NCBI GenBank assembly: GCA_016845245.1
Contig: JAERSY010000025.1
Location: 1 to 62,046, forward strand
Length of the DNA: 62,046 nt
Direction of reading: 5' to 3'
DNA from: Phycisphaerae bacterium
Lineage (GTDB): Bacteria > Planctomycetota > Phycisphaerae > Phycisphaerales > SM1A02
Below are positions 45,445 through 61,007 of this stretch, piece by piece (positions within the stretch are counted from its first letter, which is position 1; every line of letters begins with the position of its first letter). Under the pieces are notes generated by a model. That model was not told the origin of the DNA. It worked only from the letters and a program-made list of their open reading frames with translations, and made no database searches. Position numbers and translations under genes: made by a program.

Positions 45445-45469
45445 GTCGAGTTCGTACAACAGTACATTC

Positions 45470-45501
45470 AAAGCCCCTTGCAATTGCAAGGGGCTTTTTT
45501 T
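45470..45501 (+). terminator. Intrinsic terminator after PEP-CTERM paralog 2
   Basis: AAAGCCCCTTGCAA (45470-45483) is followed directly by its exact complement TTGCAAGGGGCTTT (45484-45497) and further T to 45501. This is a perfect 28-base palindrome. Confidence 0.92.
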
Positions 45502-45687
45502 GACTCACAAAGCGATGTAAGTGCATATGTCACAATAGGTAAAATAGAAAATATTGGGATTTTATGCGTATTTTTTCACCTTTTCATTGCCTATAGCGAG
45601 TTTCTCAATTACATTGCTCTTGGAAGCAATCAGTTTTCATTGATGGAAACTGATGGGAAGTTTTGGAGAATGAAAGTTCTCACGTAT

Positions 45688-45701
45688 GATTCGAACGAAT
45701 C
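45688..45701 (+). promoter_or_regulatory. Short inverted repeat ahead of PEP-CTERM paralog 3
   Basis: GATTCG and CGAATC flank AA, ending 25 bases before the start codon. It could be an operator half-site pair or a small leader hairpin. No matching copy was seen before the two other paralogs. Confidence 0.25.
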
Positions 45702-45726
45702 GAATCACGTAAGGAGAAGTGTTCTT

Positions 45727-46365
45727 ATGAAGAATACAAGTATTTTTGCTCTTGCAGCAGGAATGGGTTCAATGATTCTGGCATCAAGCGCTAGTGCTGA
45801 TGTTGCGGCATCTATGGTTTCAATGGGCGACAACGCTCAAGGCCATACATATCGCTTGTACATCACTGGTCTTGCTGATGGCGATCGAATTGACGCGGTA
45901 TATGGAAATGCTGGTAGTGTTTTAGACATTTCTGGCAACTTCTATGAAAATGCCTTTGGTGGTAGTACATCAATGGATATCAATCCAGCGTTGCTCGCAG
46001 TATTCCCAAGTCTCGCAAATGACTCTTGGGTTACAATCGGTCTTACAGATAATGTTGGCAATGCCCTCAACAATATTGGCATGAACTTCGATGCTGGTAG
46101 TTACAACACGGACAATGGTTCATGGTTTGTGACTCCAGACGATGCACAAGGCGAAGCTGTTGATGGCTCCGTTCTTATCGGTCAATTTACAGTTGTTGGT
46201 GGTACAGGCGTTGTTTCAGATGATTTCTCATCTGCAGTCGTCAACGTTCAAGGTACTATCGGTGGCGCAGTTGTCCAACATGAAGGTTTGAATGCAATTC
46301 CAGCACCTGGTGCTCTTGCACTACTCGGTGTTGCAGGTCTTGCAGCCAGACGTCGACGAAAGTAA
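45727..46365 (+). CDS. PEP-CTERM-type secreted protein, paralog 3
   Basis: 212 residues from ATG 45727, with AAGGAGAAG ending 8 bases upstream. The longer open frame from 45478 would start inside the previous terminator and is unlikely. Signal peptide MKNTSIFALAAGMGSMILAS..ASA. It shares the family blocks (NFYENAFGGS, INPALLAVFPSLANDSW, VTIGLTDNVGN, DNGSWFVTPDDAQG, LIGQFTVVGGTGVV) and the PAPGALALLG...RRRRK tail. It is closest to paralog 2 in the C-terminal half. The function is unknown. Confidence 0.82.
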   Translation: MKNTSIFALAAGMGSMILASSASADVAASMVSMGDNAQGHTYRLYITGLADGDRIDAVYGNAGSVLDISGNFYENAFGGSTSMDINPALLAVFPSLANDSWVTIGLTDNVGNALNNIGMNFDAGSYNTDNGSWFVTPDDAQGEAVDGSVLIGQFTVVGGTGVVSDDFSSAVVNVQGTIGGAVVQHEGLNAIPAPGALALLGVAGLAARRRRK

Positions 46366-46405
46366 TTTCATCGATAATTCATTACTCTGAAAATGAGTAC
46401 CTTAC

Positions 46406-46436
46406 ACAGCCCCCTTTTTAGGGGGCTGTTTCCTTT
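46406..46436. terminator. Bidirectional terminator between PEP-CTERM paralog 3 and the sulfotransferase gene
   Basis: ACAGCCCCC (46406-46414) pairs with GGGGGCTGT (46421-46429), with TTTCCTTTT after it on the plus strand. It lies between two converging genes, so it may serve both. Confidence 0.8.
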
Positions 46437-46443
46437 TAGGGTG

Positions 46444-47880
46444 TTAGGAAAGGTACTGATGGAGCGGTTCAAGCAACTCACCAAAACGCTCATGTCGTTT
46501 CAGCGAATCGCTGTACATCGGTTTTGCGACCTGGTCTTGACTGAGTGTTAACACAGTTCTGCCACTTTCCCAGAATCGCAAACACTGCTCGTTGTGAGGT
46601 AACCCGCAAAAGTCAAGAATGGTTTGCGTCCACTCATTTTGTTGTTGGACGAGTCCTTCGTAGGGCACCTCTAAGATGTCACTAAAACAAGTTGTCCAAA
46701 AACTCATGAGCGAGGCATACGCGGCATAAAACTGACCAATCGATTCAAGTGAACTTGCCCATGGATTGGAGTAGGGCGGTAACTTTTGAGCAAAACAAGA
46801 GAGTCCCATTGACATTGGATTACGCGTGCAATGAATCACCTTCGCATTTGGAAAGAGTTGTTTAATCAATCCCACAAATTGAAAATTGCCAAGTTGTTTG
46901 TCAACGACGATTTTCTCTTCGTTTGAGCTTTGCGTTTGATTGAGGTAACTCCCTGCAATCTCCGTCAGCCCATCCTCAGTGAGATTCTTCCAAGCGTCAA
47001 TTGACCCAACTGAAAATACGTCATTGATGAGTGTTGGCAAAACCTCAGATTCTCCAATGCCAGTCGCATCTGGATGAGCGTCAATGATTTGCTCAGTTAA
47101 TGTTGAACCCGAACGGAGCATCCCAACAATAAAGACCCTGTTTGACGCATCGATGTTTGCTTTAGGAAGTGTGTCCATTTCATTTGCTGGGTAGAGTGCT
47201 TTAAGTTGCTCATACTTTTTTCGTTCGTCTTCAACATCAAAGCCGAATGGAGAGAGCGCGTTGCCTTCGGTATATGCTTCAAAAGCGCTTTGATACTCGC
47301 CTGCAAGTTCCATTGCTTTGCCAAGTGTGAAGTAGAGTGTTCGCCTCGTCTCGTTGGGTTCATTTTCTGCGGGCAATCTGTCAAGTAAACACTTTGCTGC
47401 ATCAAACGGCGTATCAAGTGCCATCAATGTCTTTGCATATGCAATCAATATCGTTGTGTCAGCTTTCCCTGATTGCATCATTGGCTCTAACAAACTTAGC
47501 GCCTTGTTCGGTTCATTTAGCCGAAGCCATGTGTTTGCTTTTCCTGCAAGAACGCCATGGTGATTTGGATTAATCTTGAGCGCTTTGTCATACGAAGCAA
47601 TGGCTTTGCGAAAGTCGCCCCGGGTTGTCAGCATGTCTGCTTGAAGTCCAAAATAATCAGCACGCTTTTTGTTCTTCGCGATTGCTAGATTGATGGATCG
47701 CATCGCTTCGTCATGACGGCCGAGTGCATTGAGTGCTTGAGCGCGTAGTGCGAGCGCTAAATCGTCATTTCTTTTATCACTGAGTACTGCTTGGCAAAGG
47801 GAATCAGCGTCAGTTGCATTCCCTGAAGCAAGCGCTTGCATTGCTTGAACGAGACGTTGGTCTGGTTGTTTCGCCATCAT
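46444..47880 (-). CDS. TPR-sulfotransferase fusion
   Basis: 478 residues. Residues 1-210 hold TPR units (DLALALRAQALNALGRHDEA, DFRKAIASYDKALKINPNHHG). Residues about 245-470 form a sulfotransferase domain: the PAPS P-loop is FIVGMLRSGSTLTEQIID, followed by ESEVLP and VIHCTRNPMSMGLSCF (3'-phosphate binding). Such proteins transfer sulfate from PAPS to sugars, lipids or tyrosines; the acceptor is unknown. The start overlaps the rho stop by 4 bases (ATGA), an odd pairing that is probably just compaction. Confidence 0.82.
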   Translation of the reverse strand: MMAKQPDQRLVQAMQALASGNATDADSLCQAVLSDKRNDDLALALRAQALNALGRHDEAMRSINLAIAKNKKRADYFGLQADMLTTRGDFRKAIASYDKALKINPNHHGVLAGKANTWLRLNEPNKALSLLEPMMQSGKADTTILIAYAKTLMALDTPFDAAKCLLDRLPAENEPNETRRTLYFTLGKAMELAGEYQSAFEAYTEGNALSPFGFDVEDERKKYEQLKALYPANEMDTLPKANIDASNRVFIVGMLRSGSTLTEQIIDAHPDATGIGESEVLPTLINDVFSVGSIDAWKNLTEDGLTEIAGSYLNQTQSSNEEKIVVDKQLGNFQFVGLIKQLFPNAKVIHCTRNPMSMGLSCFAQKLPPYSNPWASSLESIGQFYAAYASLMSFWTTCFSDILEVPYEGLVQQQNEWTQTILDFCGLPHNEQCLRFWESGRTVLTLSQDQVAKPMYSDSLKRHERFGELLEPLHQYLS

Positions 47881-49067
47881 CCGCTAACGAGTTGTTCGTT
47901 TGTTTCAAATCGGTCTAATGCTTTAAGGAGTTGTTGAATTTGCACAGACGGTTTCATGTTGATGAGGCGCCTTCTGAGAGCGATGACAGTTTTGCATTCA
48001 TGCGCGTCCATCAGTAAATCTTCTTTTCGCGTTCCTGATGCTGCGAGGTTGATTGCAGGGAAGAGTCGAAGTTCGGCAATAGAACGGTCGAGAATCAACT
48101 CCATATTCCCTGTGCCTTTAAACTCTTCAAAAATGATTTGGTCAGCCCTAGAGCCAGTATCAACAAGGCAGCTTGCAATGATGGTCAACGAGCCCTCACC
48201 TTCAATGTTTCTCGCAGCACCAAACAATTGTTTTGGCACTTCAAGTGCTTTTGAATCAAGCCCGCCTGACATTGTTCGACCACTGCTTGCAAACTTTTTA
48301 GAATTGTTGAATGCTCTGCCGAGCCGCGTGAGCGAGTCGAGTAACACGACAACATCTTTTCCAGCTTCGAGCTTTCGTTTTGCTCGTTCAATTGCCATGA
48401 TGCCAAGTTCGATATGTTCATCAACGTTCTGATCATTGGATGATGCAAGGACTTCAGCAGGCACTGCGCGTTTAAACTCAGTGACTTCCTCAGGACGCTC
48501 ATCAATCAGCAGCGCAACGACTTCTACATCAGGATGATTGTGATGAATGCCTTGAGCGATGTTCTGAAGCAGTACAGTTTTGCCTGCTTTTGGAGGTGCA
48601 ACAATGAGTCCGCGAGTTCCAAATCCGATTGGGCAAAACAAATCAATGAGACGGCACGAAGGGGGGCAGCCCTTGTATTCAAGCGTCATGCGTGGCGCTG
48701 GGTCAATGACCGTCATTTCATCAAATGGTTTGTGAGAAGCGTACGCTGAAGGGTCAATGCCTTCAATAGCAGTCACTGATGCAACGACTGGCCTTACATT
48801 TCTCGGCTTTCCCTTCTTTTTGTTTTTTGATTTCTTTTGGATCACTTCAGCGGTCACGAGTTGTCCAGCTCGAAGTGCATACTCGTCTTTGAGTTTGATG
48901 GGAACGAAAGGGTCTTCATCAGACTTCACTGGACCGTTTTCCCATTTGCGCAGACGACCCTCATGTGGTGTTTCCCATTCAAGAACACCAATACACGTTT
49001 CTGATTGAATTTGATTAGACATTGGTTGAGTCGTAACCCTAATGTTGCAATGTTGTTGTTCCCCCAT
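47877..49067 (-). CDS. rho: Transcription termination factor Rho
   Basis: 396 residues. The RNA-binding OB-fold segment is short, with a basic insertion (KKSKNKKKGKPRN). Then comes the ATPase core: Walker A GLIVAPPKAGKTVLLQNIA, LLIDERPEEVTEFKR, Walker B region VVVLLDSLTRLGRAFN, Q-loop SGGLDSKALEVPKQLFGAARN and R-loop SRADQIIFEEFKGTGN. It lacks the N-terminal helical Rho_N domain of E. coli Rho and is slightly short (usual about 420). It terminates transcription at unstructured sites. AAGGTAGGC precedes the ATG at 49067. A later ATG at 49022 is possible. Confidence 0.92.
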   Translation of the reverse strand: MGEQQHCNIRVTTQPMSNQIQSETCIGVLEWETPHEGRLRKWENGPVKSDEDPFVPIKLKDEYALRAGQLVTAEVIQKKSKNKKKGKPRNVRPVVASVTAIEGIDPSAYASHKPFDEMTVIDPAPRMTLEYKGCPPSCRLIDLFCPIGFGTRGLIVAPPKAGKTVLLQNIAQGIHHNHPDVEVVALLIDERPEEVTEFKRAVPAEVLASSNDQNVDEHIELGIMAIERAKRKLEAGKDVVVLLDSLTRLGRAFNNSKKFASSGRTMSGGLDSKALEVPKQLFGAARNIEGEGSLTIIASCLVDTGSRADQIIFEEFKGTGNMELILDRSIAELRLFPAINLAASGTRKEDLLMDAHECKTVIALRRRLINMKPSVQIQQLLKALDRFETNEQLVSG

Positions 49068-49101
49068 GCCTACCTTAGATTATATCAAGGGGAGGCATAA
49101 C

Positions 49102-50070
49102 TCACAACGCGCACGCGAGTTCAGTTGCGACTCGCGCGTTTTGCGCCAAGAGTTCGATGTTTGCAGTGAGTGATTTGCCATGTGTCACTTTAACTAGATA
49201 ATCAAGCAAAAATGGTGTCCTCATCGTCTTGTCTTGCCCAGCATCACTGAATGCACGTTCGGCATCCTCCATGACAGCGCTCAGGGTGCCAGAAGATAAC
49301 GCGTTCCTTGAATTGAGTGGGACAGCTGCAAGGAGTGCTGATTGTTGATGGAGTTCATGCCAATGGTTCGTTGCGATTGTTGCGATGTCTTGCACACTTT
49401 GACAATGAAAAATTGGCATCCCATCCTCAGGCGTTCGCTCGATAAACGTTGGGAATGTAGAGGTGTTTAACCCAACAACCGGAACGCCGTTCGTTTCTAA
49501 CGCTTGAAGCGTTGCGGGAAGGTCAAGGATTGATTTTGCACCACTTGAGACGACGCATGTTGGCGTTGATGCAAGTGCGGTTATGTCTGCTGAAACGTCA
49601 AGTTCCTGATTCCAGTTTTGATGTACGCCGCCAATGCCACCTGTCGCAAAAACTCGAATAGGGTTTGGCAGGGATGGATGTTTGCACCCGAGCAATGTTG
49701 TCGCGACTGTCGTTCCAGCATGTTGACCGTGTGCCATCTTTGCGGCAATATCTGAGAGTGAACACTTCGTATTCGATTTGTCTTGTGTTAACGCCGCTAA
49801 TTCTTCTTGAGTTGCGCCAATCACCAACTCACCATGAAGCACGCACATCCATGCAGGAGTTGCACCGCCTTCGAGCACTACATCGGTCATCGTTTTTGCA
49901 AGTGCGAGGTGCACGGGCTCGCCATCAACAAGACCGTCAGGGATAGCACCGTATGAAGCGTTCCAATGTGTTTTGGGTAAGCCGGCAGTGAGTACTGCAG
50001 TTTCAAGTGCAACCACAGGTCGCTCATTTGAAAGCGCTGCGACAACATCGCTTGAAACACGAACGGTCAT
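49102..50070 (-). CDS. psuG: Pseudouridine-5'-phosphate glycosidase
   Basis: 322 residues of the PsuG family. VALETAVLTAGLP holds the conserved glutamate, and TKCSLSDIAAKMAHGQHAGTT the lysine region. RVFATGGIGGVHQ, CVVSSGAKSILDLPATLQALE and VVGLNTSTFPTFI are family hallmarks. It splits pseudouridine phosphate into uracil and ribose-5-phosphate. No psuK kinase or transporter is adjacent. The start overlaps the helicase stop by 4 bases. Confidence 0.87.
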   Translation of the reverse strand: MTVRVSSDVVAALSNERPVVALETAVLTAGLPKTHWNASYGAIPDGLVDGEPVHLALAKTMTDVVLEGGATPAWMCVLHGELVIGATQEELAALTQDKSNTKCSLSDIAAKMAHGQHAGTTVATTLLGCKHPSLPNPIRVFATGGIGGVHQNWNQELDVSADITALASTPTCVVSSGAKSILDLPATLQALETNGVPVVGLNTSTFPTFIERTPEDGMPIFHCQSVQDIATIATNHWHELHQQSALLAAVPLNSRNALSSGTLSAVMEDAERAFSDAGQDKTMRTPFLLDYLVKVTHGKSLTANIELLAQNARVATELACAL

Positions 50071-51431
50071 CTCTTTCGCGGCCTAATTCGCCCGCCCATT
50101 CGTTTGTTTGGAAGACCTGTTGGTACAACGCCTCCAGGGAAACTCCCCTTGTCTTTGCTTTCTTGGCTTGAAGGGATGTCTAGCTTAGAACGACTTTTTG
50201 CTTTTCTCGCTTCTTCAATCCGATCTTCATCGGCTTTACGCTTGGCTCTAATCTTTTTTGGCTCAGGACTCGGTTTGAACTCGACATATTGCTTTTCAAC
50301 AATTTCTACGTTTGTTAACGCTTCGATGTTGGTGAGCATATGCCCTTGTTCTGGAGTGACAAACATCAGCGCTTCGCCGCCTCTGCCAGCCCGAGCAGTT
50401 CGTCCAATCCTGTGCACATAAATTTCTGGATCTTCAGGAACGTCATAATTAATGACATGTGTCACGCCATCTACATCGATGCCTCTTGCTGCGAGGTCGG
50501 ATGCAATAAGAGTTTGCAAGTTTCCTTTTCTAAGCGCAGTCATCACTTTGTTACGCTTTGATTGTTGCATGTCGCCATGGATCGCTGCGGTTTCTACATC
50601 TTTACTCGTTAAGAACTTTGCAAGTTTATCTACGGTCGCTTTTGTTTTACAAAAAATGAGCGTCATGTCTGGCTTGTCATTTGAGAGCACGTGGTAAAGA
50701 AGTTTTTGTTTATCCCACGGCTGTACAGTGACATATTCTTGAGAAACCTGAGCAACCGTCAAACTGCCGGATGAATCCGTGACATCAATGTTCTTCGGAT
50801 TGCTCATGTATTTTTTTGCGAGTCGTTTAATCTCATCTGAAATTGTCGCTGAAACAAAAATCGTTTGATGCTTCTGTTTCAAATGGCCAAGAATCTTTCG
50901 GATGTCTTCTCTAAACCCAATATCGAGCATCCTGTCCACTTCATCAAGGATTGCTAACTTGATGTTGTTGTATGGCAAGTGCCCGCGTTGGTGTAAGTCC
51001 ATGACTCTGCCCGGAGTTCCGACAATGATTTGCGGTCGTTTTTCTAACTTGGTGATTTGTGTTCCAATTTTTTGGCCACCATAGATTGGAACAACCATAT
51101 GTTTAGTGAATTTGCCGAGCGATTCCATCTCTTTTGCAACTTGAATAGCAAGTTCTCTTGTTGGAACAAGAATGAGTCCGCCGTATGCATCTTCTTCTTG
51201 AATGAGATGGAGAGCAGGAAGTCCAAACGCAGCAGTTTTACCAGAGCCGGTTCGAGATTGTCCTAAAATGTCATGCCCTTCAAGCGACTCTGGAATGAGT
51301 GCAGACTGGATGACTGTCGGATGGCTGAAGCCCTCTGCCTCAACACCTTTGAGAATCATCTCGTTTAGTCCAAGCGATTTGAAGGTCGCCTTGGTGTCAA
51401 AAATATCTAAATCTACGTTCTTACTGGTCAT
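50067..51431 (-). CDS. DEAD-box family RNA helicase with a DEVD motif II
   Basis: 454 residues. It has a Q-motif (FSHPTVIQSALIP), motif I GQSRTGSGKTAAF, Ia PTRELAIQV, Ib TPGRVMDL, motif II LAILDEVDRMLDIGF (DEVD, not DEAD), motif III SATIS, motif V ASDLAARGIDVDGV and motif VI HRIGRTARAGRGG. The C-terminal 70 residues are Lys/Arg-rich and end in GGRIRPRKR, as in RhlE-like proteins. It remodels RNA or ribosome-assembly intermediates. AGGACA lies 7 bases before the ATG. It is divergent from alr. Confidence 0.88.
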   Translation of the reverse strand: MTSKNVDLDIFDTKATFKSLGLNEMILKGVEAEGFSHPTVIQSALIPESLEGHDILGQSRTGSGKTAAFGLPALHLIQEEDAYGGLILVPTRELAIQVAKEMESLGKFTKHMVVPIYGGQKIGTQITKLEKRPQIIVGTPGRVMDLHQRGHLPYNNIKLAILDEVDRMLDIGFREDIRKILGHLKQKHQTIFVSATISDEIKRLAKKYMSNPKNIDVTDSSGSLTVAQVSQEYVTVQPWDKQKLLYHVLSNDKPDMTLIFCKTKATVDKLAKFLTSKDVETAAIHGDMQQSKRNKVMTALRKGNLQTLIASDLAARGIDVDGVTHVINYDVPEDPEIYVHRIGRTARAGRGGEALMFVTPEQGHMLTNIEALTNVEIVEKQYVEFKPSPEPKKIRAKRKADEDRIEEARKAKSRSKLDIPSSQESKDKGSFPGGVVPTGLPNKRMGGRIRPRKR

Positions 51432-51517
51432 AAGTGTCCTGGGGGGTCATGGTAAAATTGGCTTGCTGACGATAGTATCAATGAGGACGAACTTTTTATC
51501 TACACAGTATTGCACGG

Positions 51518-52726
51518 ATGCAAACAGAACGAACACTACAACAATGCCAACTACACGTTGATTTACATGCAATAGAATCAAATTGTACCGTAATCCGTAA
51601 TCATATTGGAACGCAATGTGGCTTTTGTGCTGTCGTGAAAGCTGATGGATATGGCCTTGGAGCAGCGAGAGTTGCTTCGCGGTTGAGCCGTCATGCCGAT
51701 TTGCTCGCTGTATACAGTCCTGATGAAGCAGGGGAGCTGCTCGCAAGGGGAATCACCACTCGCATCTTAGTCCTCGCACCGGTGTACTCAATTGACCGAT
51801 TCCACTCAGTCTATCGCGGGCTTTCCTCGGGTTCCGTGCACTTAACAGTTCATTCCATCGAACATATTGAAGCGCTCGGCAATTGCGCAAAACGATTTGG
51901 GTTCAAGATTCCGGTCCATCTCAAGATTGATACGGGTCTTCATCGGGGTGGTTGTGAAGAAGAACATGTGGGGTTGATTTTAAAGGCGATTCACAATCAT
52001 GCAAAGTTAGAGTTAAAAGGTGTGCTGACGCATTTTGCATCAGCGGTCCATGATGCAGAAAAAACTAGAATGCAACACGAGTTGTTTGCAAGGTTGCTAA
52101 CTGAAAACCAACATCTCATTCCAGAAGATTGTTTGCTACATGAAGCAAACACTGCAGCAATGGTTAATTGGAATGAAACACATTTGAACATGGTGCGCGT
52201 GGGTCTCGCGTGGACTGGTAGTGTTCCAAATGGCGTGAAGCCGCTTGACGGATTAAAGTCAGTTGTGAAATGGTGTTCATCCTTGGCGCACGTTCGTGCG
52301 GTAAAGAGGGGGGAATCGGTTGGCTATTCTGGTCGCTGGACTGCAAGGCGTGATTCATTGATTGGCATTGTTCCTGTTGGCTATGCTGCTGGCTACCCAA
52401 TGGGTGTTGGTCAAGAAGGCGATACTGAAGGCGCGTATGTCAAAGTCGCTGGAATGCAAGAAGGCGACGCTCCAGTGATTGGTGCAGTTTGCATGGATCA
52501 AATTGCAATTGATATCACTGAGTTTCCAAATGCGTCTGTTGGGACGGCAGTAGAGCTCATCAGTTCAGATGTATCAAGTAGGGCGTCAATCGCTTCACTT
52601 GCAAAAGTTGCGGGCGTCGTGCCACACGCAATCATGAGCAGAATCTCACCATCAGTGAAGCGTGTGTACAAACAATCACTCTTTGTTGATTCTAAACCAC
52701 TTCAACAAACAACTTCCATCATATAA
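51518..52726 (+). CDS. alr: Alanine racemase
   Basis: 402 residues. The PLP lysine is in FCAVVKADGYGLG near the N-terminus. KIDTGLHRGG and the catalytic tyrosine region SVGYSGRWTARR also fit, and GAVCMDQIAID completes the fold-III plus C-terminal beta domain pattern. It makes D-alanine for peptidoglycan, consistent with murG and ftsW in the same window. A strong hairpin begins at the stop codon. Confidence 0.9.
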   Translation: MQTERTLQQCQLHVDLHAIESNCTVIRNHIGTQCGFCAVVKADGYGLGAARVASRLSRHADLLAVYSPDEAGELLARGITTRILVLAPVYSIDRFHSVYRGLSSGSVHLTVHSIEHIEALGNCAKRFGFKIPVHLKIDTGLHRGGCEEEHVGLILKAIHNHAKLELKGVLTHFASAVHDAEKTRMQHELFARLLTENQHLIPEDCLLHEANTAAMVNWNETHLNMVRVGLAWTGSVPNGVKPLDGLKSVVKWCSSLAHVRAVKRGESVGYSGRWTARRDSLIGIVPVGYAAGYPMGVGQEGDTEGAYVKVAGMQEGDAPVIGAVCMDQIAIDITEFPNASVGTAVELISSDVSSRASIASLAKVAGVVPHAIMSRISPSVKRVYKQSLFVDSKPLQQTTSII

Positions 52727-52785
52727 AACGCGTCCCGTCATCGAGATGACGGGACGAAGCGTTTTGGAGAGAGAGGAGAGAGAGA
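52725..52785 (+). terminator. Long hairpin at the alr stop codon, followed by a GA tract
   Basis: CGTCCCGTCAT (52731-52741) pairs with ATGACGGGACG (52746-52756). An outer helix AAAACG (52725-52730) pairs with CGTTTT (52760-52765) across a small bulge. A GGAGAGAGAGGAGAGAGAGA purine tract follows (52766-52785) in place of a T run. It lies directly upstream of the structured element at 52786. Confidence 0.7.
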
Positions 52786-52898
52786 GTTTGGTACGGATGT
52801 CGTCGAACCCAAGAAACGCTTCGTGCAGGTGGGTCGGCCCGTAGGCGGTCCCTATAAAACGTCTTCGTTACTTGGGTTCGAGAACACTCGTTCCAAAC
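52786..52898. ncRNA. Candidate structured non-coding RNA: one long, interrupted hairpin
   Basis: The whole 113-base segment folds on paper into a single rod. GTTTGG-t-ACG (52786-52795) pairs with CGT-t-CCAAAC (52889-52898). A symmetric 7x7 internal loop follows (52796-52802 / 52882-52888). Then TCGAACCCAAG (52803-52813) pairs perfectly with CTTGGGTTCGA (52871-52881), and AACG (52815-52818) with CGTT (52866-52869). A larger asymmetric loop follows, then the apical hairpin 52831-52852 (GGG..GCC-CGTA-GGC..CCC). A rod with an open bubble recalls 6S RNA, but I see no decisive 6S sequence signature, and the strand is open. No reading frame or tRNA-like or SRP-like core explains it. The flanks, 52899-52975, hold nothing else I recognise. 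Confidence 0.5.
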
Positions 52899-52975
52899 CT
52901 TCTATCGGCAACTCTACAAAGTGAATGCATGATTCTCATAAAAAAGTGATGAATGACCGATAACTCGCCCTCATA

Positions 52976-53012
52976 AACGGAATTCGATTAAAATCATGGT
53001 TTTAACTCCGTT
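52976..53012 (+). promoter_or_regulatory. Interrupted palindrome abutting the mqnA ribosome site
   Basis: Outer arms AACGG (52976-52980) and CCGTT (53008-53012), inner arms TTAAAA (52988-52993) and TTTTAA (53000-53005). The 3' outer arm touches TTAGGAG (53012-53017), the likely ribosome site of mqnA. It could be an operator or a leader hairpin that masks the site. Both are inference. Confidence 0.4.
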
Positions 53013-53030
53013 AGGAGTGTTTTTAGTACC

Positions 53031-53870
53031 ATGCAACCAATGACTCAACTCGCTGAACGACAAGATTTAAGACTTGGTGTTGTAAATTTTATGAATACAA
53101 CGCCGCTTATTTTTGGCTTAGAACAAAATGCTGGAATCGAACTCGTTCCGAACGTGCCAAGTGAACTCGCAACACTGATCGAGGGTGGAGCGGTCGATTT
53201 TGCGTTGTCATCCTCTATCGATTATCAAAAGAGTACGTGTCCTGTCTCTGTGTTACCTGTAAGCACATTAAGCAGTAACGGTGAAACGTTCACTGTCAAA
53301 GTTTGTTCACGAATCCCTCTAGACCAAGTGACTGAAGTGTATTGCGACTCAGACAGCCACACTTCAGTGGTGCTTCTGCAAATCTTGATGCAGAAGCAAT
53401 TCGGAAACACTATTAAAGTGGTCCCTGTCGATGTGAAGGGATTACATCCTATTCATGATGAGTGGCCCGATACGGTTCTTATGATTGGGGATAAAGTTGT
53501 AACCAACAATGTTACTCAAACACATCCGTACGAAGCCGATTTGGGTGAAGCATGGAAAACGTTAACTGGTCTGCCATTTGTGTTTGCTGTTTGGATTGGG
53601 CATGCTAACTTGCCGTTACACAAAGTACAGCAAGCAGCGACTTTGTTTGACAGACAGTTAAGATGTAACAAACAACGAATTGAGCAAGTTGTTTCAAACA
53701 CATCTGACTCGCGAGGATGGAATCGGTCGACGGCACTCACGTACCTTACGGAACACATGGATTACTCTTGGACTCAAGAGCATGAAACTTCGCTCAATCT
53801 CTTTTACCAATACGCCTGCGAGTTAGGACTCATTACACAACAGAAACCGCTTACATTGTTTCAGTTCTAA
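53031..53870 (+). CDS. mqnA: Chorismate dehydratase MqnA (futalosine pathway)
   Basis: 279 residues with the periplasmic-binding-protein-like MqnA fold. LGVVNFMNTTPLIFGL, VPSELATLIEGGAVDFALSSSIDY and the mid-protein VTEVYCDSDSHTSVVL and VLMIGDKVV match the family. It converts chorismate to 3-[(1-carboxyvinyl)oxy]benzoate, the first step of futalosine-type menaquinone synthesis. The other mqn genes are not in the window. TTAGGAG is 13 bases upstream of the ATG, so ATG 53040 (MTQLAER) is a possible alternative. The next gene starts one base after its stop. Confidence 0.88.
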   Translation: MQPMTQLAERQDLRLGVVNFMNTTPLIFGLEQNAGIELVPNVPSELATLIEGGAVDFALSSSIDYQKSTCPVSVLPVSTLSSNGETFTVKVCSRIPLDQVTEVYCDSDSHTSVVLLQILMQKQFGNTIKVVPVDVKGLHPIHDEWPDTVLMIGDKVVTNNVTQTHPYEADLGEAWKTLTGLPFVFAVWIGHANLPLHKVQQAATLFDRQLRCNKQRIEQVVSNTSDSRGWNRSTALTYLTEHMDYSWTQEHETSLNLFYQYACELGLITQQKPLTLFQF

Positions 53871-53871
53871 C

Positions 53872-55443
53872 ATGCCTGTTGCCCCTCGCTTTCTAACAAC
53901 GCAGTTACAAAGTCTTGCTGAACAAATTGCAAGGGCTCCCCTCCACGTCAAAGCGCAACAGTTAACTCAACTAGAAACTCTGCTGTTTGATTTAGAAGAT
54001 GAACGACTTTATCCGTTTGATTATGTTGTGTTTAGAGTCACCGGCTTGCGTTTAGAGATCAGTGAACAATCAAACATGATTGGGAGCGCGTTGAAAAATG
54101 ATCTCGTTGCAGCCATCGCTATTGTCAGTCGAACGATGGACATGAAAGCGGGTGTAGGCCTTTCACTTATTGAAGTTGCCGAAGCATTGGGCGTGTCTCA
54201 GCGTACGGTCAATCGACTTCGTCATGAAGGTTTACCATTTCTCTGGGTTGTTGATAATGAAGGGAATCGGCGGTTGCAATGCAAGGAAACCCATTTAGAC
54301 TTGTTCAAAGAATCGAGAAAAAGGCGAATACAACAGGCCTCCGCGTTTTCAAGATTGACTGCAAGCGAAAAGAAAAACATCGTTGAGTTCGCATTGAGCT
54401 ACAAAGGTCAGGGCAAAACTATAAACGAAGTTGCCAGTGACTTGAAGAGCGAGAGTGGCAGGGGGCTTGAAACCATCAGGGCTATCTTAAAAGGTAATGA
54501 GCAAGTTTCTAGCGAATTGCCGTTAAGCAAGCCGCTTACTAGGCAAGATGCAAGAGACATTGAAGCAGCCATTCAAAGTGGTGCATCTTGGAATGCTCTG
54601 GCGACGGAATATAAAAGGACGAAGAATGCGATGCGTGGCGCAATTGCACGGTTGCGTCGTGACCGTTTAAAGCGTTTGTCAATTCCAACAATCGAATTGC
54701 CTGTCTTTTCGATGAAGGATGCTCGTGAAGTGTTGTTAAGCCCTGAAGTGGTCAGGTCATGCCTGCCGCCGTTAACACAACTAAACATCTTTGAACTAGA
54801 AGAATCAGCGACGGCGATTCCAGTTCAAGATGAAACCGCGATTGTTGCGGCGATGTATGTCTTAAGAAGGAGTGCAAAAGAACACCTCTCTTCAATCCAA
54901 TACACGCCAACAGAAGGCGAGTTAGACGCAATTGAGACAGATTTGAGGTGGGCATGGTTATTGCAGCAAACGCTGATGTTGTCCGCGTTGCCAGCAGCAC
55001 TTTCAGTTGCAACGCAACACGCAGGAAGGGCACTCACGGAGTTGCCGGTTAGCGATATTGAGTTTTACGTAGGAAAAGCGTTGGCGATTACAGAACAGGT
55101 TTGCTCAACAATTGATCCAAAATCTAATCAAACAGTTGCGAAGTTGACAGCGCTAACAGTTGACCGCGCAATTTCTAACATTGACATCGTAAAGGCCCCA
55201 ACGAAGGCAACTGCAAAGCCAAGCCCGGATGCTCAGTTCAGGTCATTGCATGAGCATTCGCAATGGTCTGTTTTGGTCCCAACAATGACATTAAGCGATG
55301 CTGAACAATGTTCACAATTACATAGTGAAGTATTCAAACAGAAGTTCGGTTGGTGTGGATATCCGAAACGAACCGTTGAATTGGCTTCAGTGCTAGACGA
55401 ATCGTACAACGCCATTGCTAGGGCGTTAAAAGTGTTGCATTAA
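53872..55443 (+). CDS. Large uncharacterised protein with several helix-turn-helix-like segments
   Basis: 523 residues, no family recognised with certainty. Segments that look like helix-turn-helix units are LIEVAEALGVSQRTVNRLRHEG (about residue 103; a MerR/excisionase-type start), TINEVASDLKSESGRG (about 184), ASWNALATEYKRTKNAMRGAI (about 240) and the C-terminal RTVELASVLDESYNAIARAL, which resembles a sigma region 4 helix pair. The N-terminal 70 residues and the middle (about 290-420) are helical without motifs. No signal peptide is present. It is tightly linked to mqnA (one-base gap). A DNA-binding regulator or sigma-like factor is likely, target unknown. Confidence 0.55.
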   Translation: MPVAPRFLTTQLQSLAEQIARAPLHVKAQQLTQLETLLFDLEDERLYPFDYVVFRVTGLRLEISEQSNMIGSALKNDLVAAIAIVSRTMDMKAGVGLSLIEVAEALGVSQRTVNRLRHEGLPFLWVVDNEGNRRLQCKETHLDLFKESRKRRIQQASAFSRLTASEKKNIVEFALSYKGQGKTINEVASDLKSESGRGLETIRAILKGNEQVSSELPLSKPLTRQDARDIEAAIQSGASWNALATEYKRTKNAMRGAIARLRRDRLKRLSIPTIELPVFSMKDAREVLLSPEVVRSCLPPLTQLNIFELEESATAIPVQDETAIVAAMYVLRRSAKEHLSSIQYTPTEGELDAIETDLRWAWLLQQTLMLSALPAALSVATQHAGRALTELPVSDIEFYVGKALAITEQVCSTIDPKSNQTVAKLTALTVDRAISNIDIVKAPTKATAKPSPDAQFRSLHEHSQWSVLVPTMTLSDAEQCSQLHSEVFKQKFGWCGYPKRTVELASVLDESYNAIARALKVLH

Positions 55444-55444
55444 A

Positions 55445-55477
55445 AAAGACCTCTCCACGAATCGTAGAGAGGTCTTT
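55445..55477. terminator. Bidirectional terminator between the HTH-like gene and rpsI
   Basis: AAAGACCTCTC (55445-55455) pairs with GAGAGGTCTTT (55467-55477) in the 54-base gap between two converging genes. A and T runs at the ends suit both strands. Confidence 0.85.
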
Positions 55478-55497
55478 GAATAGCGAATTGAATCTGA

Positions 55498-56004
55498 TTA
55501 ACGCTTTGAGAACTGGAATCGTCGACGTGCGCCAGGTTGACCAGGTTTTTTCCGTTCAACTTGACGTGGGTCACGAGTCAGGTAACCGTTTTCACGAAGC
55601 ATTGACTCAAGTGAAGGATCGTACTTCGAAAGCGCACGTCCAAGGCCGAGGATGATCGCGCCTGCTTGTCCAGTGTATCCACCACCGTTTGTTTTCACAT
55701 GAACACTCATTGACCCTTTAGCGTTTGATTTCTCAAGCACTGTCAAAATGTCTTTGTGATCTCTTGATTCGGTAAAGTATTGCTTCAAGTCTTTATTGTT
55801 GACTGTGAATGCGCCATCTCCAGGACGGATACGCACGCGAGCAACAGCTGCTTTACGACGTCCAGTACCCCACCACCAATGTCCATCAGTAGGGGTGCTT
55901 GTTGGAGCGCTTTTTGTTGTTGTTTCAGGGGAAGGTGTTGCAACTGTTTCTTCAGTTGCGACGACTTCTTCGGTTGTTTCAGGTTGTGTGTTTTCTTCTG
56001 TCAT
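55498..56004 (-). CDS. rpsI: Ribosomal protein bS9-family (uS9) with N-terminal extension
   Basis: 168 residues. The conserved core begins WWGTGRRKAAVARVRIRPG (about residue 43) and ends DPRQVERKKPGQPGARRRFQFSKR-type, here with the usual terminal KR. GGYTGQAGAIILGLGRAL is the family signature. The first 40 residues are a Thr/Glu/Pro-rich extension (TEENTQPETTEEVVATEE) absent from E. coli. It is the partner of uL13 in the classical rplM-rpsI operon. Confidence 0.95.
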   Translation of the reverse strand: MTEENTQPETTEEVVATEETVATPSPETTTKSAPTSTPTDGHWWWGTGRRKAAVARVRIRPGDGAFTVNNKDLKQYFTESRDHKDILTVLEKSNAKGSMSVHVKTNGGGYTGQAGAIILGLGRALSKYDPSLESMLRENGYLTRDPRQVERKKPGQPGARRRFQFSKR

Positions 56005-56049
56005 GTGTTCGTAGACTCTTGGAGTCCCTCTTGAGAACTGTAAGTTATG

Positions 56050-56072
56050 GAGTTGCCGACCATCGGTAACTC
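56050..56072 (-). promoter_or_regulatory. Hairpin in the rplM-rpsI intergenic gap
   Basis: GAGTTGCCGA (56050-56059) and TCGGTAACTC (56063-56072) form ten pairs (one G-U) with a three-base loop. It lies between uL13 and uS9 in the same transcript. It may attenuate, stabilise or mark a processing site. Confidence 0.45.
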
Positions 56073-56082
56073 TCTGCTGAAA

Positions 56083-56517
56083 TTAGCACGCAAGTGCTTC
56101 TGGTTTCTGATTTGTGTGTGGGTGCTCAGGACCTCTGTAAACTTTAAGTCTTCTGAACATATCTCTTCCAAGTCTTGTTTTTGGAAGCATTCTTCGAACA
56201 GCTTCTTCGATGATTCGTTCAGGATGAGATTCAATCAAGTCACTGTATTTGTGAGCTTTCAAACCGCCAGGGTAACCACTGTAAACAAGCTGTGCTTTTT
56301 GCTGCAACTTCTTGCCTGTCATGTTTACCTTTTCAGCATTTGTGACAACAACAAAGTCGCCAGTGAGGACATGTGGTGTCCATTCTGGGCGGTGTTTACC
56401 CATAAGGTGTGTAGCAATCGTTGTTGCCATACGACCGAGCGTTTGTCCATCAGCGTCTACGTGACGCCATGCTGGTTCAATTTCACCTTGTTTAGCAAAT
56501 GTAGTTTGACGTGGCAT
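56083..56517 (-). CDS. rplM: Ribosomal protein uL13
   Basis: 144 residues from ATG 56517 ([12 protein letters not shown]), with AGGAAAAGAG just upstream. The frame extends 8 codons further. [44 protein letters not shown] and the C-terminal [17 protein letters not shown] are standard uL13. It is the first gene of the rplM-rpsI pair. Confidence 0.95.
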
Positions 56518-56609
56518 ATCTCTTTTCCTTCGAGGACCCATACAAATTAAAGGTCGAATTGGAGAATTTACCTAAAATCGCCCTCTATGTCAACCTGTAT
56601 GATGCCTCG

Positions 56610-58040
56610 ATGCAATCAGAAGAACAACCAATAACACCATTATCTACTCAAAAACGAGGATTTGTGAAATGTGCGTGGGTCGCAATCGCTGGCTTAGTCG
56701 CAGTCATTTTTATCCTTCAAACCCTACCCGCCGTTGAAGAGGAAGAGGGTGGTGGGGCAGACGCTGCGGGATTGGTTGTGATGGAACTGCAAGCAAAGTA
56801 CATGGTGGGTGTTTCGGAGTTGTCAGGAGAACCATTACTCGTTGCGACTCAAGCGGCTCCTTTAGACATTGGAACTGTTGAACAACGACAGCGATACATG
56901 GCGTTAATGCTCGCATTTGGTGATGATGAAGCTGCAAGCAACTCAGCAAAAAAAATGAGAGATGAACTCGCGACTCATGACATGTCGCTCACTGAGCCGC
57001 AAGAAGCATCACAACAATTGTTAGATGTGTTGATTGCTGGTGGCGTCTTGTCAAAAGAACAAGAAGCAGAATTCAAGGCATCAATGGGCTGGTTTGGAAC
57101 ACTTCTCTTTGCGGATGAGACTGAACGGGACGCAATCGAGAAATCTGAGGCAACAAAAGTTCTCGTTGTCGGACTTGGCATCTTAGGCATCGTGATGTTT
57201 GGGCTCTTTGGTTTTGCGTTATTGATTTACTTCTTTACACGCTCAATGAGAGGCAAACTAGTCAGCAAACTGAATGCGGAAAATAGCAGGCAGGGCGTCT
57301 ATGCAGAACTCTTTTTTGTTTGGTTGATGTTGTTTCTCGTTCTCATGACATTTGCTGGCGTCATCGGATTAACTGAGAGCGTAAAAGAGCAACCCATTCT
57401 TGGTCTTGTGATTACCCTTTGCGCATTTTTTGGGAGTTTAGTTGCACTTGCTTGGGCGCTGATTCGAGGCCTCTCGTGGTCAGAGTTGAAAGAGGACATC
57501 GGTCTTCATTCAGGCACGGGTATGATTCGTGAAACGTTGTGGGGCGTGCTTGGCTACAGCATGACACTTCCATTTATGGCTGTTGGTATTGTGTGCACGC
57601 TCATCCTTGTCGCGATTCAGTCCTTGTTTATCTCAATGGGAGATGGCGATCCTTTTTATGGAACTGGCGGAGGCTCACATCCAATCATCGTCGAAGTTGC
57701 AAATGGTGGTGTTGGCATCAAGATTGGCCTTTTAATGCTTGCTGCAGTGGCTGCGCCAATTGTTGAAGAAATCATGTTTAGAGGCGTGCTCTACAGGCAA
57801 CTCAGAATGTCCTCTTCCCGCCTGTCAGGATTTTTCAGCGTTGTGTTTTCAGTTGGCTTAACGTCATTCGTGTTTGCAGCCATACACCCTCAAGGTTGGA
57901 TTGGCATTCCCGCACTGATGAGCATCGCAATTGGCATGAATCTTCTTCGCGAATACAGGGGCTCACTCATTGCGCCCATGGTGATTCACGCGACAAGTAA
58001 CGGCATTGTCATGACCATGATGATGATCTTTATGAGTTGA
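56610..58040 (+). CDS. CPBP-family intramembrane protease
   Basis: 476 residues from ATG 56610. The longer frame from 56511 would overlap the rplM start and is unlikely. After one N-terminal helix (AWVAIAGLVAVIFILQ) comes a soluble helical region (about 50-190). Several spans follow, then the CPBP/Abi motifs near the C-terminus: EEIMFRGVLYRQL (EExxxR), FVFAAIHPQG (FxxxH) and MVIHATSNG (HxxxN). These are Rce1-like membrane proteases. The substrate is unknown. No ribosome site is evident. Its end overlaps the convergent mrp gene by 11 bases. Confidence 0.8.
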   Translation: MQSEEQPITPLSTQKRGFVKCAWVAIAGLVAVIFILQTLPAVEEEEGGGADAAGLVVMELQAKYMVGVSELSGEPLLVATQAAPLDIGTVEQRQRYMALMLAFGDDEAASNSAKKMRDELATHDMSLTEPQEASQQLLDVLIAGGVLSKEQEAEFKASMGWFGTLLFADETERDAIEKSEATKVLVVGLGILGIVMFGLFGFALLIYFFTRSMRGKLVSKLNAENSRQGVYAELFFVWLMLFLVLMTFAGVIGLTESVKEQPILGLVITLCAFFGSLVALAWALIRGLSWSELKEDIGLHSGTGMIRETLWGVLGYSMTLPFMAVGIVCTLILVAIQSLFISMGDGDPFYGTGGGSHPIIVEVANGGVGIKIGLLMLAAVAAPIVEEIMFRGVLYRQLRMSSSRLSGFFSVVFSVGLTSFVFAAIHPQGWIGIPALMSIAIGMNLLREYRGSLIAPMVIHATSNGIVMTMMMIFMS

Positions 58041-59121
58041 TTGAAAGCGTCGGCTTGTTCGGCTCAGTTTGCTCTGCGACTTTGATGACGTTTTGAACAA
58101 AGGTGTCAAGTGATGCAGTCACGGTGTCATCAATCTCCCAATAATCAAGCGGCGAACCCGAATCTGCAGCGACACGCATCTTGGGGTGAATCGGCAAGCT
58201 TCCTAAGAATTCGATGTTCATCGAAGCAGCAAGTGTTTCACCGCCGCCTTTTCCAAACAGATCATACTCCTTGCCATCATCGCAAATAAAGTAAGACATG
58301 TTTTCTACGAGTCCAAGAACTGGAACACCAAGTTGTTGGAACATTCGTACGGCTCTTCTTGCATCGTCTTGTGCAACAACTTGAGGCGTGCACACAATAA
58401 TCGCGCCAGTCAACGGTAACAATTGAGCAAGGGAGAGTGGAACATCACCAGTCCCGGGAGGCAAATCAACAACCAATTGGTCGAGCGTTCCCCATTTCGT
58501 TTGTGTTGCAAGTTGGTTAAACGCACTGTGGGCTCTTGGTCCTCTCCAGATCAGTGCTCGTTCGGGTTCAACGAGTTTTCCAATCGTCATTGCCTTGATG
58601 CCACACACTTCAAAAGGCAGTAGCATTTGCTCTTCACTTTTTGATTCTTCAGTTCCAAGGCCAAGCATTGTTGTCATTGAAGGTCCGTAGATGTCACCGT
58701 CTAATAGTCCAGTCTTATAGCCAAGCCGTCCAAGTCCAACTGAAAGGAGCGTTGAAATCGTTGACTTGCCAACTCCACCTTTGCCTGCACCAACTGCAAT
58801 CACCTTGCCTACATCTGGTAAAGGGTTACCAGTCTCAGCAACTTGTTCATTCGCTTTCTTAGTTGGCTCTGCGAATGTGACTGTCACTTTTCCGATGTTC
58901 GATTGGTGCTCTTGTCCAGCATTTCGAAGTGCGAACTCTATTTGTTCAGCAAGTGCGTCTTTGACAGATTGCTGCTCTGAGAGCAACTCAATGAGCAATG
59001 TGATGGCGTCACCTTCAGTTTGAATATCTTTGATAAGACCAGCAGTGACGATGTCTTTACCTGTTGCTGCATCGATGACAGATGCGAGTGCTGAGCGTAA
59101 TTGTGAGGGTTGTAGGGTCAT
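58030..59121 (-). CDS. Mrp/NBP35-family iron-sulphur carrier ATPase
   Basis: 363 residues from ATG 59121 (MTLQPSQLRSAL). The N-terminal 90 residues form a MIP18/DUF59-like domain. The P-loop ATPase core has VGAGKGGVGKSTIS, LLDGDIYGPS and VVDLPPGTGDVPLSL. The C-terminal CxxC typical of many Mrp proteins is not obvious: the region reads MSYFICDDGKEYDLFGKGGG, with a single cysteine. It is probably involved in iron-sulphur cluster transfer. The frame extends 22 codons further upstream. Confidence 0.88.
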   Translation of the reverse strand: MTLQPSQLRSALASVIDAATGKDIVTAGLIKDIQTEGDAITLLIELLSEQQSVKDALAEQIEFALRNAGQEHQSNIGKVTVTFAEPTKKANEQVAETGNPLPDVGKVIAVGAGKGGVGKSTISTLLSVGLGRLGYKTGLLDGDIYGPSMTTMLGLGTEESKSEEQMLLPFEVCGIKAMTIGKLVEPERALIWRGPRAHSAFNQLATQTKWGTLDQLVVDLPPGTGDVPLSLAQLLPLTGAIIVCTPQVVAQDDARRAVRMFQQLGVPVLGLVENMSYFICDDGKEYDLFGKGGGETLAASMNIEFLGSLPIHPKMRVAADSGSPLDYWEIDDTVTASLDTFVQNVIKVAEQTEPNKPTLSINS

Positions 59122-59199
59122 TTTTTGCCTTTTTGGATGAGTTGTGGCATTATATAGACACAGCACTCGTTTCACGAGAATACGCAAGGAGGTATTGCC

Positions 59200-59913
59200 A
59201 TGATCATCCGAATTTCAGCAACAGTCGTTTTAATGAGTAGCGTTGCATTAGCACAAGAGGTCCCAGACGATTTGCTTTCAGGACCAACGCTTGAAACCGA
59301 AGAAGTCACTCAGCAACAAATGATGGACCGCCGCATGCAGGAGTCTAGCAGTAAGACAAAACTAGGGACTCGCATAAAGGTTGGCTTGTGGCTAAAAGCG
59401 ATGGAGTCGATGGAGTTAGACTCAAGGCAAAAGAGTGTCTTTAGAGAGACGATGGCGGAGTATCGTGCTGCACAAAAAGCATTCCAAGAAGAGTTTGGTG
59501 ATGAGATTTCAGCGTTACGCAAAGAACAAGAGTCAATGAAATCTGAAGGAATGGAACCAACAAAAGAGAGCAGAATTCAAATCGTTGAAATGATGAAAAT
59601 GTCTCCAGACGTCGGCGAGTATCAAGATAAGGTTTGGGCAACGCTTACAGCTTCACAGCAAGAAACATTTACTAAAAGTTATCAATCCCTCATGGATGAA
59701 GAGATTGAGCGTCGAGATAAACGAAGTGGTAAATCCAAAGATAAACAGAGCGACTCAATGAAAGACGGGTTCTCTGCAAAGGATTCAAAGTTTAGAGACA
59801 AAGAAGTTGCGCCTGAGGATGATCACATTGTGCGAAATGGTGATGCGCTTGATGCCACAGCGATGAAACGCATTAAGTTTCTAAGAAAACTTCAACAGCT
59901 TAAAGATGACTAA
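59200..59913 (+). CDS. Secreted, highly charged Spy/CpxP-like protein
   Basis: 237 residues. Signal peptide MIIRISATVVLMSSVALA; the mature protein is helical and rich in Lys, Glu, Gln and Met. ATLTASQQETFTKSYQ contains an LTxxQ motif of the Spy/CpxP periplasmic group, and an earlier MELDSRQKSVFRETMAEY is a similar segment. That makes a stress-related periplasmic chaperone-like role possible. The family match is weak. AAGGAGG precedes the ATG. It overlaps the next, convergent gene by 4 bases. Confidence 0.55.
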   Translation: MIIRISATVVLMSSVALAQEVPDDLLSGPTLETEEVTQQQMMDRRMQESSSKTKLGTRIKVGLWLKAMESMELDSRQKSVFRETMAEYRAAQKAFQEEFGDEISALRKEQESMKSEGMEPTKESRIQIVEMMKMSPDVGEYQDKVWATLTASQQETFTKSYQSLMDEEIERRDKRSGKSKDKQSDSMKDGFSAKDSKFRDKEVAPEDDHIVRNGDALDATAMKRIKFLRKLQQLKDD

Positions 59914-61007
59914 TCTGTAACACGACCTGAAGGTACTCGCTCAGTAGGGGCGAGTTCAGGTTTTTGTTTATTGCCGTTCTTTATGGGTTTGGTTTGCGGG
60001 GAGTCAAGTGTATCACTAGAGTTCACTGTTTTGTGTAACCCATATTTTCGATGTGGTTTGTGTTCATTACCCGTTCTAACCACTTCGCTTTCCATAGACT
60101 TCTTCCACGCATTTGATAATGCGATGAGTAACTCAAAATACTTTGTGTGTCTCTTGTCGAGCTCAGTCCATTGTTCTACCGGCGTATATCCGTAAGCATC
60201 CCAAAGAATGAGCCCTTGCACTTTGTACACATCGCCCGCTTCATTCGTCCATGATGCTTGAAGTGCAGCGTTGACATGGTGGAGAAAATCATCTTCGGGG
60301 ACAAAGATTGAGCGGTCACCATCCTCACCACAATACCGAGGTGAAACAAAGACATAAACGGGCCGATTCCCACCTGCTTGTTTGAGAGTAGTTTCAATGT
60401 GTTGTTGAACCTTGCCATACAATTTTGCGTCTTTGTTACAGTCGTACACTTCTGGGAAAATCGCTGGACTGTCGTTAAGAATTGGCATAATACTGTGGCC
60501 TTGGCTGAGCCAATCTGAGTTCGTATGCCTTCCAGAAGGTAATCCCCAATAGCCCCACTGTGCATCTGGTCTTAAACTTCTTGCAATCTCAAGGCCTTCC
60601 CTATAGACGGTACAAATTTCATGTAACCTCGCCTGCGTAATTGTCTTGGCCCTAAGTTCAAGCCACCAAGGCGCTTCATAATCAAGAACGACTGGTCCCT
60701 CATAACCCACCGGTATGTTCCGACTGACCCATCTTGAAAACTGTTCAATGTTTTCTGGTGTGATATCGCCACTTGCGTTCGTATCAACACCTCCGTGGTA
60801 CGCCATAGGGACTCGAGTGATGCCTTGAGCATTCGTGTATGCAATCGTCTCAATCCCTTGGTTTGGTTTGGTCCATTTAATCCCATTGTAAATCTCTGGC
60901 TTCCATCCAGCTGGTTCGGGTTCAGCAATCCGAAGCGCTCCAAACATGAAAGTTAGGATGAGATATAAACTTACCACGTGTTTAGTTCTACCATATTGAA
61001 GTATCAA
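59910..61007 (-). CDS. Secreted protein with hyaluronidase (GH56)-like motifs
   Basis: 365 residues. The annotated start is a TTG at 61007; GTG at 60977 just before a hydrophobic stretch (VVSLYLILTFMFGALRIA) is also plausible. The protein then shows GPVVLDYEAPWW (about residue 105), like the GH56 catalytic Asp-x-Glu strand. REGLEIARSLRPDAQWGYWGLPSG resembles the GH56 block around WGYYGFP, and DSPAIFPEVYDCN and RPVYVFVSPRY follow in the expected order. The C-terminal 60 residues are Lys/Pro/Thr-rich and variable. A TIM-barrel glycoside hydrolase is inferred by eye, not confirmed. Confidence 0.5.
   Translation of the reverse strand: MILQYGRTKHVVSLYLILTFMFGALRIAEPEPAGWKPEIYNGIKWTKPNQGIETIAYTNAQGITRVPMAYHGGVDTNASGDITPENIEQFSRWVSRNIPVGYEGPVVLDYEAPWWLELRAKTITQARLHEICTVYREGLEIARSLRPDAQWGYWGLPSGRHTNSDWLSQGHSIMPILNDSPAIFPEVYDCNKDAKLYGKVQQHIETTLKQAGGNRPVYVFVSPRYCGEDGDRSIFVPEDDFLHHVNAALQASWTNEAGDVYKVQGLILWDAYGYTPVEQWTELDKRHTKYFELLIALSNAWKKSMESEVVRTGNEHKPHRKYGLHKTVNSSDTLDSPQTKPIKNGNKQKPELAPTERVPSGRVTD

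Follow-up and report, generated by a model that had tools for sequence, protein, structure and literature searches.

A probable truncated 6S RNA paralog beside mqnA in Phycisphaerales

What is the rod-shaped element in the spacer between alr and mqnA in a Phycisphaerae bacterium? The window considered here is the whole analysed stretch of DNA, 62,046 nucleotides of one contig, in which a first-pass annotation had noted a fold of 113 bases and left it as either a divergent 6S RNA or a new class. Two genes flank the site: alr (alanine racemase; 51518-52726, plus strand) matches TIGR00492 (257 bits), PF01168 and PF00842, and mqnA (menaquinone biosynthesis; 53031-53870, plus strand) matches PF02621 (143 bits, cut-off 26), while a search of the mqnA product against NCBIfam gave no match. 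The analysis below indicates that the minus strand from ~52899 to 52725 very probably encodes a truncated paralog of 6S RNA, here called mini-6S.

The rod (52786-52898, minus strand) had been described as folding nearly end to end, and it is far more stable than shuffled sequences on both strands, at -53.8 kcal/mol (z -6.3) for the plus strand and -51.5 kcal/mol (z -6.8) for the minus strand, a stability reached by none of 200 shuffles for each strand. The predicted helices differ from those first listed, and the symmetric 7x7 loop proposed between the outer pairs and the inner eleven appears in neither fold. On the minus strand the rod runs through helices of 6, 3, 5, 11 and 4 bp, each separated from the next by a 1x1 mismatch, and beyond the 4-bp helix through internal loops to an apical hairpin. 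The 5' strand of the 11-bp helix beside the bubble (TCGAACCCAAG, 52871-52881, minus strand) pairs with its 3' strand (CTTGGGTTCGA, 52803-52813, minus strand), a pairing present in the fold and accompanied by compensatory changes across genera. Then come, all on the minus strand, the 5' strand of the central bubble (52853-52870), with 18 nt including 4 nt able to pair (~15 nt in most genera other than the window's); a 22-nt apical arm, GGGACCGCC-TACG-GGCCGACCC (52831-52852), which recurs among the exact matches given below; and the 3' strand of the bubble (52814-52830), starting with the ACCT of the 6S signature CCCACCT, a block also found in full-length 6S. The apical loop is YNCG, a stable tetraloop type, on the minus strand in 13 genus sequences, and is variable in other genera. 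Past the rod lie a pyrimidine-rich linker with CT repeats on the RNA strand (52766-52785, minus strand), single-stranded in the fold, and a predicted intrinsic terminator hairpin (52725-52765, minus strand) with a T run downstream. Folded together, the rod, linker and terminator hairpin (52721-52899) give z -7.6 and a gene of ~175 nt.

The rod was originally described on the plus strand. The terminators of relatives, the upstream motif and the strand-specific similarity to 6S place it on the other, so that the RNA is most likely transcribed from the minus strand, from ~52899 to 52725, with its own terminator; we infer both the strand and the ends from these sequence features. Ten of the 13 genus loci have 5-9 T on the minus strand, 61-68 nt past the end of the model match; the window's own terminator has only four. 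Across genera, runs of at least 5 T occur within 110 nt downstream in 16/43 loci, compared with 8/43 on the other strand at the other end. In some loci (L121, L134 and L136) the T run abuts the rod, and there the rod itself can act as the terminator. The hairpin at 52725-52765 may also serve alr on the opposite strand.

Comparison with relatives, which had been proposed as a check, shows that the helices are conserved with compensatory changes. In a BLAST search of 60 relatives, each of the 12 other genus members has a match to the spacer DNA (E 4.3e-22 or better), and G034, from another genus of the family, matches through the apical hairpin (E 3e-6). The exact core, with 0 mismatches, is present outside the genus in seven of 101 family genomes searched (G034, G066, G076, G079, G103, G105 and G125). 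A search of genome contigs with MqnA found no relative. A core-pattern search of public species genomes returned 22 stretches, ten of which were folded, seven of these with the rod; the three that fold without it (L064, L065 and L076) were dropped as chance matches. The 19 kept are Phycisphaerales, Phycisphaerae or Planctomycetota metagenome-assembled genomes, comprising the seven folded stretches and twelve genus mates. Of 181 family genomes, covariance model R1 (from 21 sequences) finds the RNA in 43 and R2 (from 30) in 44, counts that include the model sequences, and the R2 carriers span 21 of the 45 genera of the family. In the window R2 matches 52795-52889 on the minus strand (72.6 bits, E 1.1e-12), the window sequence being one of the 30 from which the model was built. 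With strict filters, R1 found no carrier outside the family in 400 order genomes, and the sole R2 match in 397 class genomes (G501, E 3.2e-7) was judged a false match to GGGAGC repeats.

In alignment A2, 15 of 27 pairs have changes on both sides; seven arm pairs lack covariation support there because they are invariant. In alignment A4 the figure is 21 of 32 pairs, reached by 0 of 500 shuffles, with 89.7% of cells paired (77.2% when shuffled, at most 50.1% with partners slid) and a covariation score of 0.41 (at most 0.18 with partners slid). Between the window's genus and the others, the helix beside the bubble changes from C-G to U-A and from A-U to G-C; a flip of CCC/GGG to GGG/CCC, considered for this helix, proved wrong. 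The arm carries a C.C mismatch (A4 columns 48 and 61) in 27/30 rows and C.U or U.C in the rest, and its loop and adjoining pair change. One locus (L138, in G067) has tandem RNA copies, at 4041-4145 and 4315-4409, beside alr. The rod is a real, conserved structured RNA.

An Rfam search of the rod, also suggested at the outset as a way to unmask a known but unannotated RNA, gave no clear match to a known family. At the gathering threshold, the whole window contains only tRNA and the rod has no match; at E up to 10, the region 52650-53100 gives six sub-threshold matches, neither 6S nor SRP and none credible. The Rfam 6S model (RF00013) has no match in the window's own genome. It matches 95/198 genomes of the class, 50 of them above the cut-off, and at E<=0.1 matches 36/181 genomes of the family, 0 above the cut-off. 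All 36 of these family genomes score under the gathering cut-off, so the model underdetects 6S in this family, and a missing match in a family genome says little.

The likeness to 6S shows at diagnostic positions. The first-pass annotation had recognized a 6S-like shape and had identified no defining sequence block; a signature, GGG-A...A-CCC-AC(C/U)U, is shared by the rod and the full-length 6S of the family and order, together with a predicted bubble of like size. The base of the arm follows the same plan in both: GGG/CCC pairs are followed by a mismatch and a short helix of GC pairs, and CCC leads on into AC(C/U)U. The position next to GGG/CCC is an A.A mismatch in 17/30 rows and a standard pair (U-A, A-U, G-U or G-C) in 10/28 distinct sequences. 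CCCAC(C/T)T is found in 40/43 loci, the exceptions differing at one position (ACCACCT in L128 and L131, CCCGCCT in L154). Both arm ends are common to the two forms, being GGGATCGC...GCGAACCCACCT in full-length 6S of the family and GGGACCGC...GCCGACCCACYT in mini-6S, and the helix that reads CTCGAACCC/GGGTTCGA in the window is GCTCGAACC/GGGGTTCGAGC in several 6S of the order. The Rfam 6S consensus aCCCACCUggaAcagCaGGuUC agrees with the window's 3' strand at 15/22 positions and, for L121, a locus selected as a favorable example, at 17/22. The predicted bubble measures ~15/13 nt, compared with 16/13 in the Rfam consensus; up to four additional arm-side pairs are possible in most genera outside the window's, and would shrink it.

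These positions were examined more formally in three ways. A 3'-strand profile made from 20 full-length 6S (13 family, 7 order), with mini-6S left out, was applied to 27 of the 43 carrier loci. The rod comes out among the five best positions in 15/27 loci when the right strand is scored (median rank 4) and in 0/27 when the wrong one is (median rank 81), although the wrong strand does better in 4/27 (L068, L120, L127 and L130); in the window the rod ranks first of 29,954 positions (45001-60000, both strands). A combined 5' and 3' profile also puts the window's rod first, but reaches the top 8 in only 9/27 loci (wrong strand, 0/27). The covariance model R3, built from 8 arm-deleted 6S, gives, when default filters are used, no match in the window and a single weak one in 44 sources, at the L135 RNA. 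With filters off and 28 carrier loci searched, R3 yields 28 matches at E<=10, of which 11 lie on the RNA in the right strand and register and 0 on the RNA's wrong strand; these 11 on-target matches score 8.2-12.3 bits (best E 0.84), none significant alone, the two best matches are off target, and the window's locus is outside the 11. Another arm-deleted alignment (A6, 23 sequences) was discarded owing to a misaligned GGG. At 20 arm-base positions, with the GGG and CCC anchors chosen by the analyst, the 30 mini-6S rows are identical to 15 family full-length 6S at 14.6 positions on average, compared with 6.9 +/- 1.7 and a maximum of 13.8 for shuffles (ten rows, 2,000 shuffles), 8 of the 30 rows falling under that maximum. 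Taken together, these results make homology of mini-6S to 6S RNA likely, a judgment lowered very slightly by the pairs that can form within the bubble in other genera. Of the two options first raised, a divergent 6S is favored over a new class, by diagnostic positions and not by shape alone, and the form is a truncated one.

Other identities for the rod can be weighed against this one. An unrelated structured RNA could have come to resemble 6S by convergence or chance, for instance a rod that binds another protein through its arm mismatches. Such an RNA would account for the missing Rfam match, the weak R3 scores, the partly pairable bubble in most other genera, and an arm under its own constraint, which keeps its C.C (27/30) or C.U/U.C mismatch as the loop varies; it would leave unexplained why the shared positions are those conserved in 6S, mostly in a strand-specific manner, and why both arm ends are shared with the family's full-length 6S, and we regard it as unlikely. 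The length of ~113 nt and the single match in most genomes would suit signal recognition particle RNA or another housekeeping RNA, an identity with practically no chance of being right. SRP RNA (RF00169) is already present on another contig of the window's genome (G000:C129:5401-5493, 41.4 bits, cut-off 40), which refutes SRP RNA identity for the rod, and in 52/61 family genomes; the rod locus has no RF00169 match.

A cis-acting leader or riboswitch of mqnA is suggested by the genomic place. Among 39 carrier loci tested, alr and mqnA are both present in 29, just mqnA in 8 and just alr in 2, the single-flank loci arising partly because contigs end; outside the genus the RNA is upstream of mqnA and co-directional with it in all 29 loci with mqnA on the fetched stretch. 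In the window's genus, however, the RNA is reversed and points away from mqnA in 8/8 loci tested, having apparently flipped its orientation there, and the T run right behind the rod in L121, L134 and L136 also argues against a leader. Sixty genomes bear MqnA without the RNA, and in 13 of 20 inspected alr lies directly upstream of mqnA with no RNA between them (the other 7 gave no match for alr upstream of mqnA). Since the alr-mqnA spacer exists without the RNA and orientation varies between genera, the RNA is a separate unit. By eye, mqnA in several loci, from many genera, has a TATACT/TATGAT-like box so close to its ATG (a few bases) that its mRNA might be leaderless, which also speaks against a leader; overall this role for the rod is very improbable. 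MqnA is detected in 103/181 family genomes, including 43 of the 44 RNA carriers, the exception being G067. The alr-mqnA site was also considered as a location of 6S elsewhere, and alr or mqnA occurs in 0/16 6S regions from the family, order and class.

If the rod is a 6S RNA, as favored here, the main difference from the known form is its arm. From GGG to CCC the arm has 20-24 nt in 30/30 mini-6S, whereas the range is 71-93 nt in full-length 6S, as measured in 15 from the 36 family genomes with an Rfam 6S match; the long apical arm with its '-35'-like region is missing in all 30 aligned mini-6S. In nine carriers out of 44 (G022, G024, G032, G066, G067, G075, G076, G091 and G103), the Rfam 6S model gives a further match below its cut-off elsewhere in the genome, from which mini-6S is probably a second 6S. 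Three of these matches are weak (G024, G032 and G075, E 0.005-0.04), and the other six, all inspected, have the full-length form with GGGATCG...CCCAC(C/T)T. Replacement of 6S everywhere was dropped given these matches in carriers. In the window's genus, with an Rfam 6S match in 0/13 genomes, mini-6S might be the only 6S, the full-length form having been replaced. The nine carriers with a second match all belong to other genera, and with Rfam 6S matches in only 36/181 family genomes the miss says little; replacement in this genus is therefore a possibility that we consider doubtful.

The upstream region of mini-6S offers a further distinction from full-length 6S. In the window, a proximal CCGATA (52903-52908, minus strand) lies at the RNA 5' end and a distal CCGATAA (52957-52962, plus strand) farther upstream. 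Across loci, CCGAT occurs within 60 nt upstream in 35/43 (1.8 expected), 14-23 nt before the model start in 32 of these 35, and CGATAA/TTATCG occurs 30-140 nt upstream in 32/43 (1.8 expected), with 26 at -72 to -80. The two CCGATA(A) elements are thus near-fixed, one at about -20 and the other, inverted in the window's genus, at about -75, and perhaps form an operator pair or an unusual promoter. Their use as a housekeeping -10 was set aside, other boxes being seen by eye upstream of the family's full-length 6S. Of 15 full-length 6S genes listed, 1 shows the motif upstream (L228, CCGAT only), from which the two RNAs are probably under different control. The CCGATA-marked promoter region suggests that mini-6S is made under other conditions.

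6S RNA blocks RNA polymerase. 6S RNAs are described as two helical arms separated by a bubble; the bubble mimics an open promoter, a '-35'-like region sits in the apical arm, and the closing-side helix corresponds to the downstream duplex, which is unwound during synthesis of the product RNA (pRNA) (PMC8876501). The engineered Bacillus subtilis 6S78, which has the bubble and two short helices without the '-35' arm, is 50% bound in vitro at ~1 uM, versus a Kd of ~100 nM (about ten-fold weaker), and still templates pRNA and is released (PMC8876501). Mini-6S would likewise retain the parts that polymerase reads as an open-promoter mimic, namely the long downstream (closing) helix, the central bubble, whose 3' strand ACC/UU is conserved, and the GGG/CCC pairs and mismatch at the foot of the apical arm, and would have lost the rest of the apical arm, the stand-in for the promoter '-35' side. 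Binding of polymerase by mini-6S is inferred by analogy: the RNA may dock in the polymerase active site, where it could either block the enzyme or serve, through its 5' bubble strand and closing helix, as template for a short product RNA, and then be released. Without the '-35' arm, it would hold the housekeeping holoenzyme less tightly than full-length 6S does, or would use another form of polymerase. A tentative extension, which we think has a minority chance of being correct, is that a '-35-less' second 6S with its own CCGATA-controlled promoter acts on a different form of polymerase (an alternative-sigma holoenzyme or core) from that bound by full-length 6S, giving two-channel control.

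Compared with known systems, mini-6S shares with 6S RNA (SsrS, RF00013) the rod, probably the central bubble, and GGG-A...A-CCC-ACCU at the arm base and 3' bubble strand; in the window's genus the sequence of the flanking helix is likewise shared with 6S of the order. It differs in its short arm, in falling below Rfam detection, and in the absence of the wide first internal loop of Rfam 6S. With 6S78 it shares the bubble, two short helices and lack of a '-35' arm; 6S78 is a 78-nt laboratory construct, whereas mini-6S is natural and has a longer closing helix. The 6S-2 RNA of B. subtilis, a paralog of ordinary length, similarly accompanies a main 6S; mini-6S differs in lacking the arm and in its place (alr-mqnA). 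Ms1 RNA (~300 nt) resembles mini-6S in being a 6S-related RNA aimed at polymerase, putatively so for mini-6S. 6S-2 is described as a second 6S paralog (PMC8876501), and Ms1 of Actinobacteria as a 6S-related RNA that binds core polymerase and was sought by synteny (PMC9130861). Mini-6S may bind either core or holoenzyme.

Among the open-access papers listed for 6S RNA in Planctomycetes or Phycisphaerae, none concerns 6S variants, though such an RNA may already have been described elsewhere. On 6S RNAs that are short, minimal, atypical, truncated or second copies, only the B. subtilis construct paper was relevant among the matches listed; 'short 6S RNA', in one paper, refers to transcripts derived from 6S. 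In the planctomycetes Pirellula, Rhodopirellula and Thermogutta, 6S is reported to be absent (PMC5673643). Surveys based on Rfam can miss 6S in the family studied here, with 0/181 genomes above the cut-off. Marine Phycisphaerales look to carry, beside mqnA, a cut-down and probably second copy of 6S without most of the arm that mimics the upstream promoter. If this is true, a natural form lacking most of the apical arm has been kept in 21 genera, mirroring the in vitro truncations of B. subtilis 6S; bubble and closing helix can then suffice, and mini-6S would make it testable which form of polymerase the '-35' arm selects.
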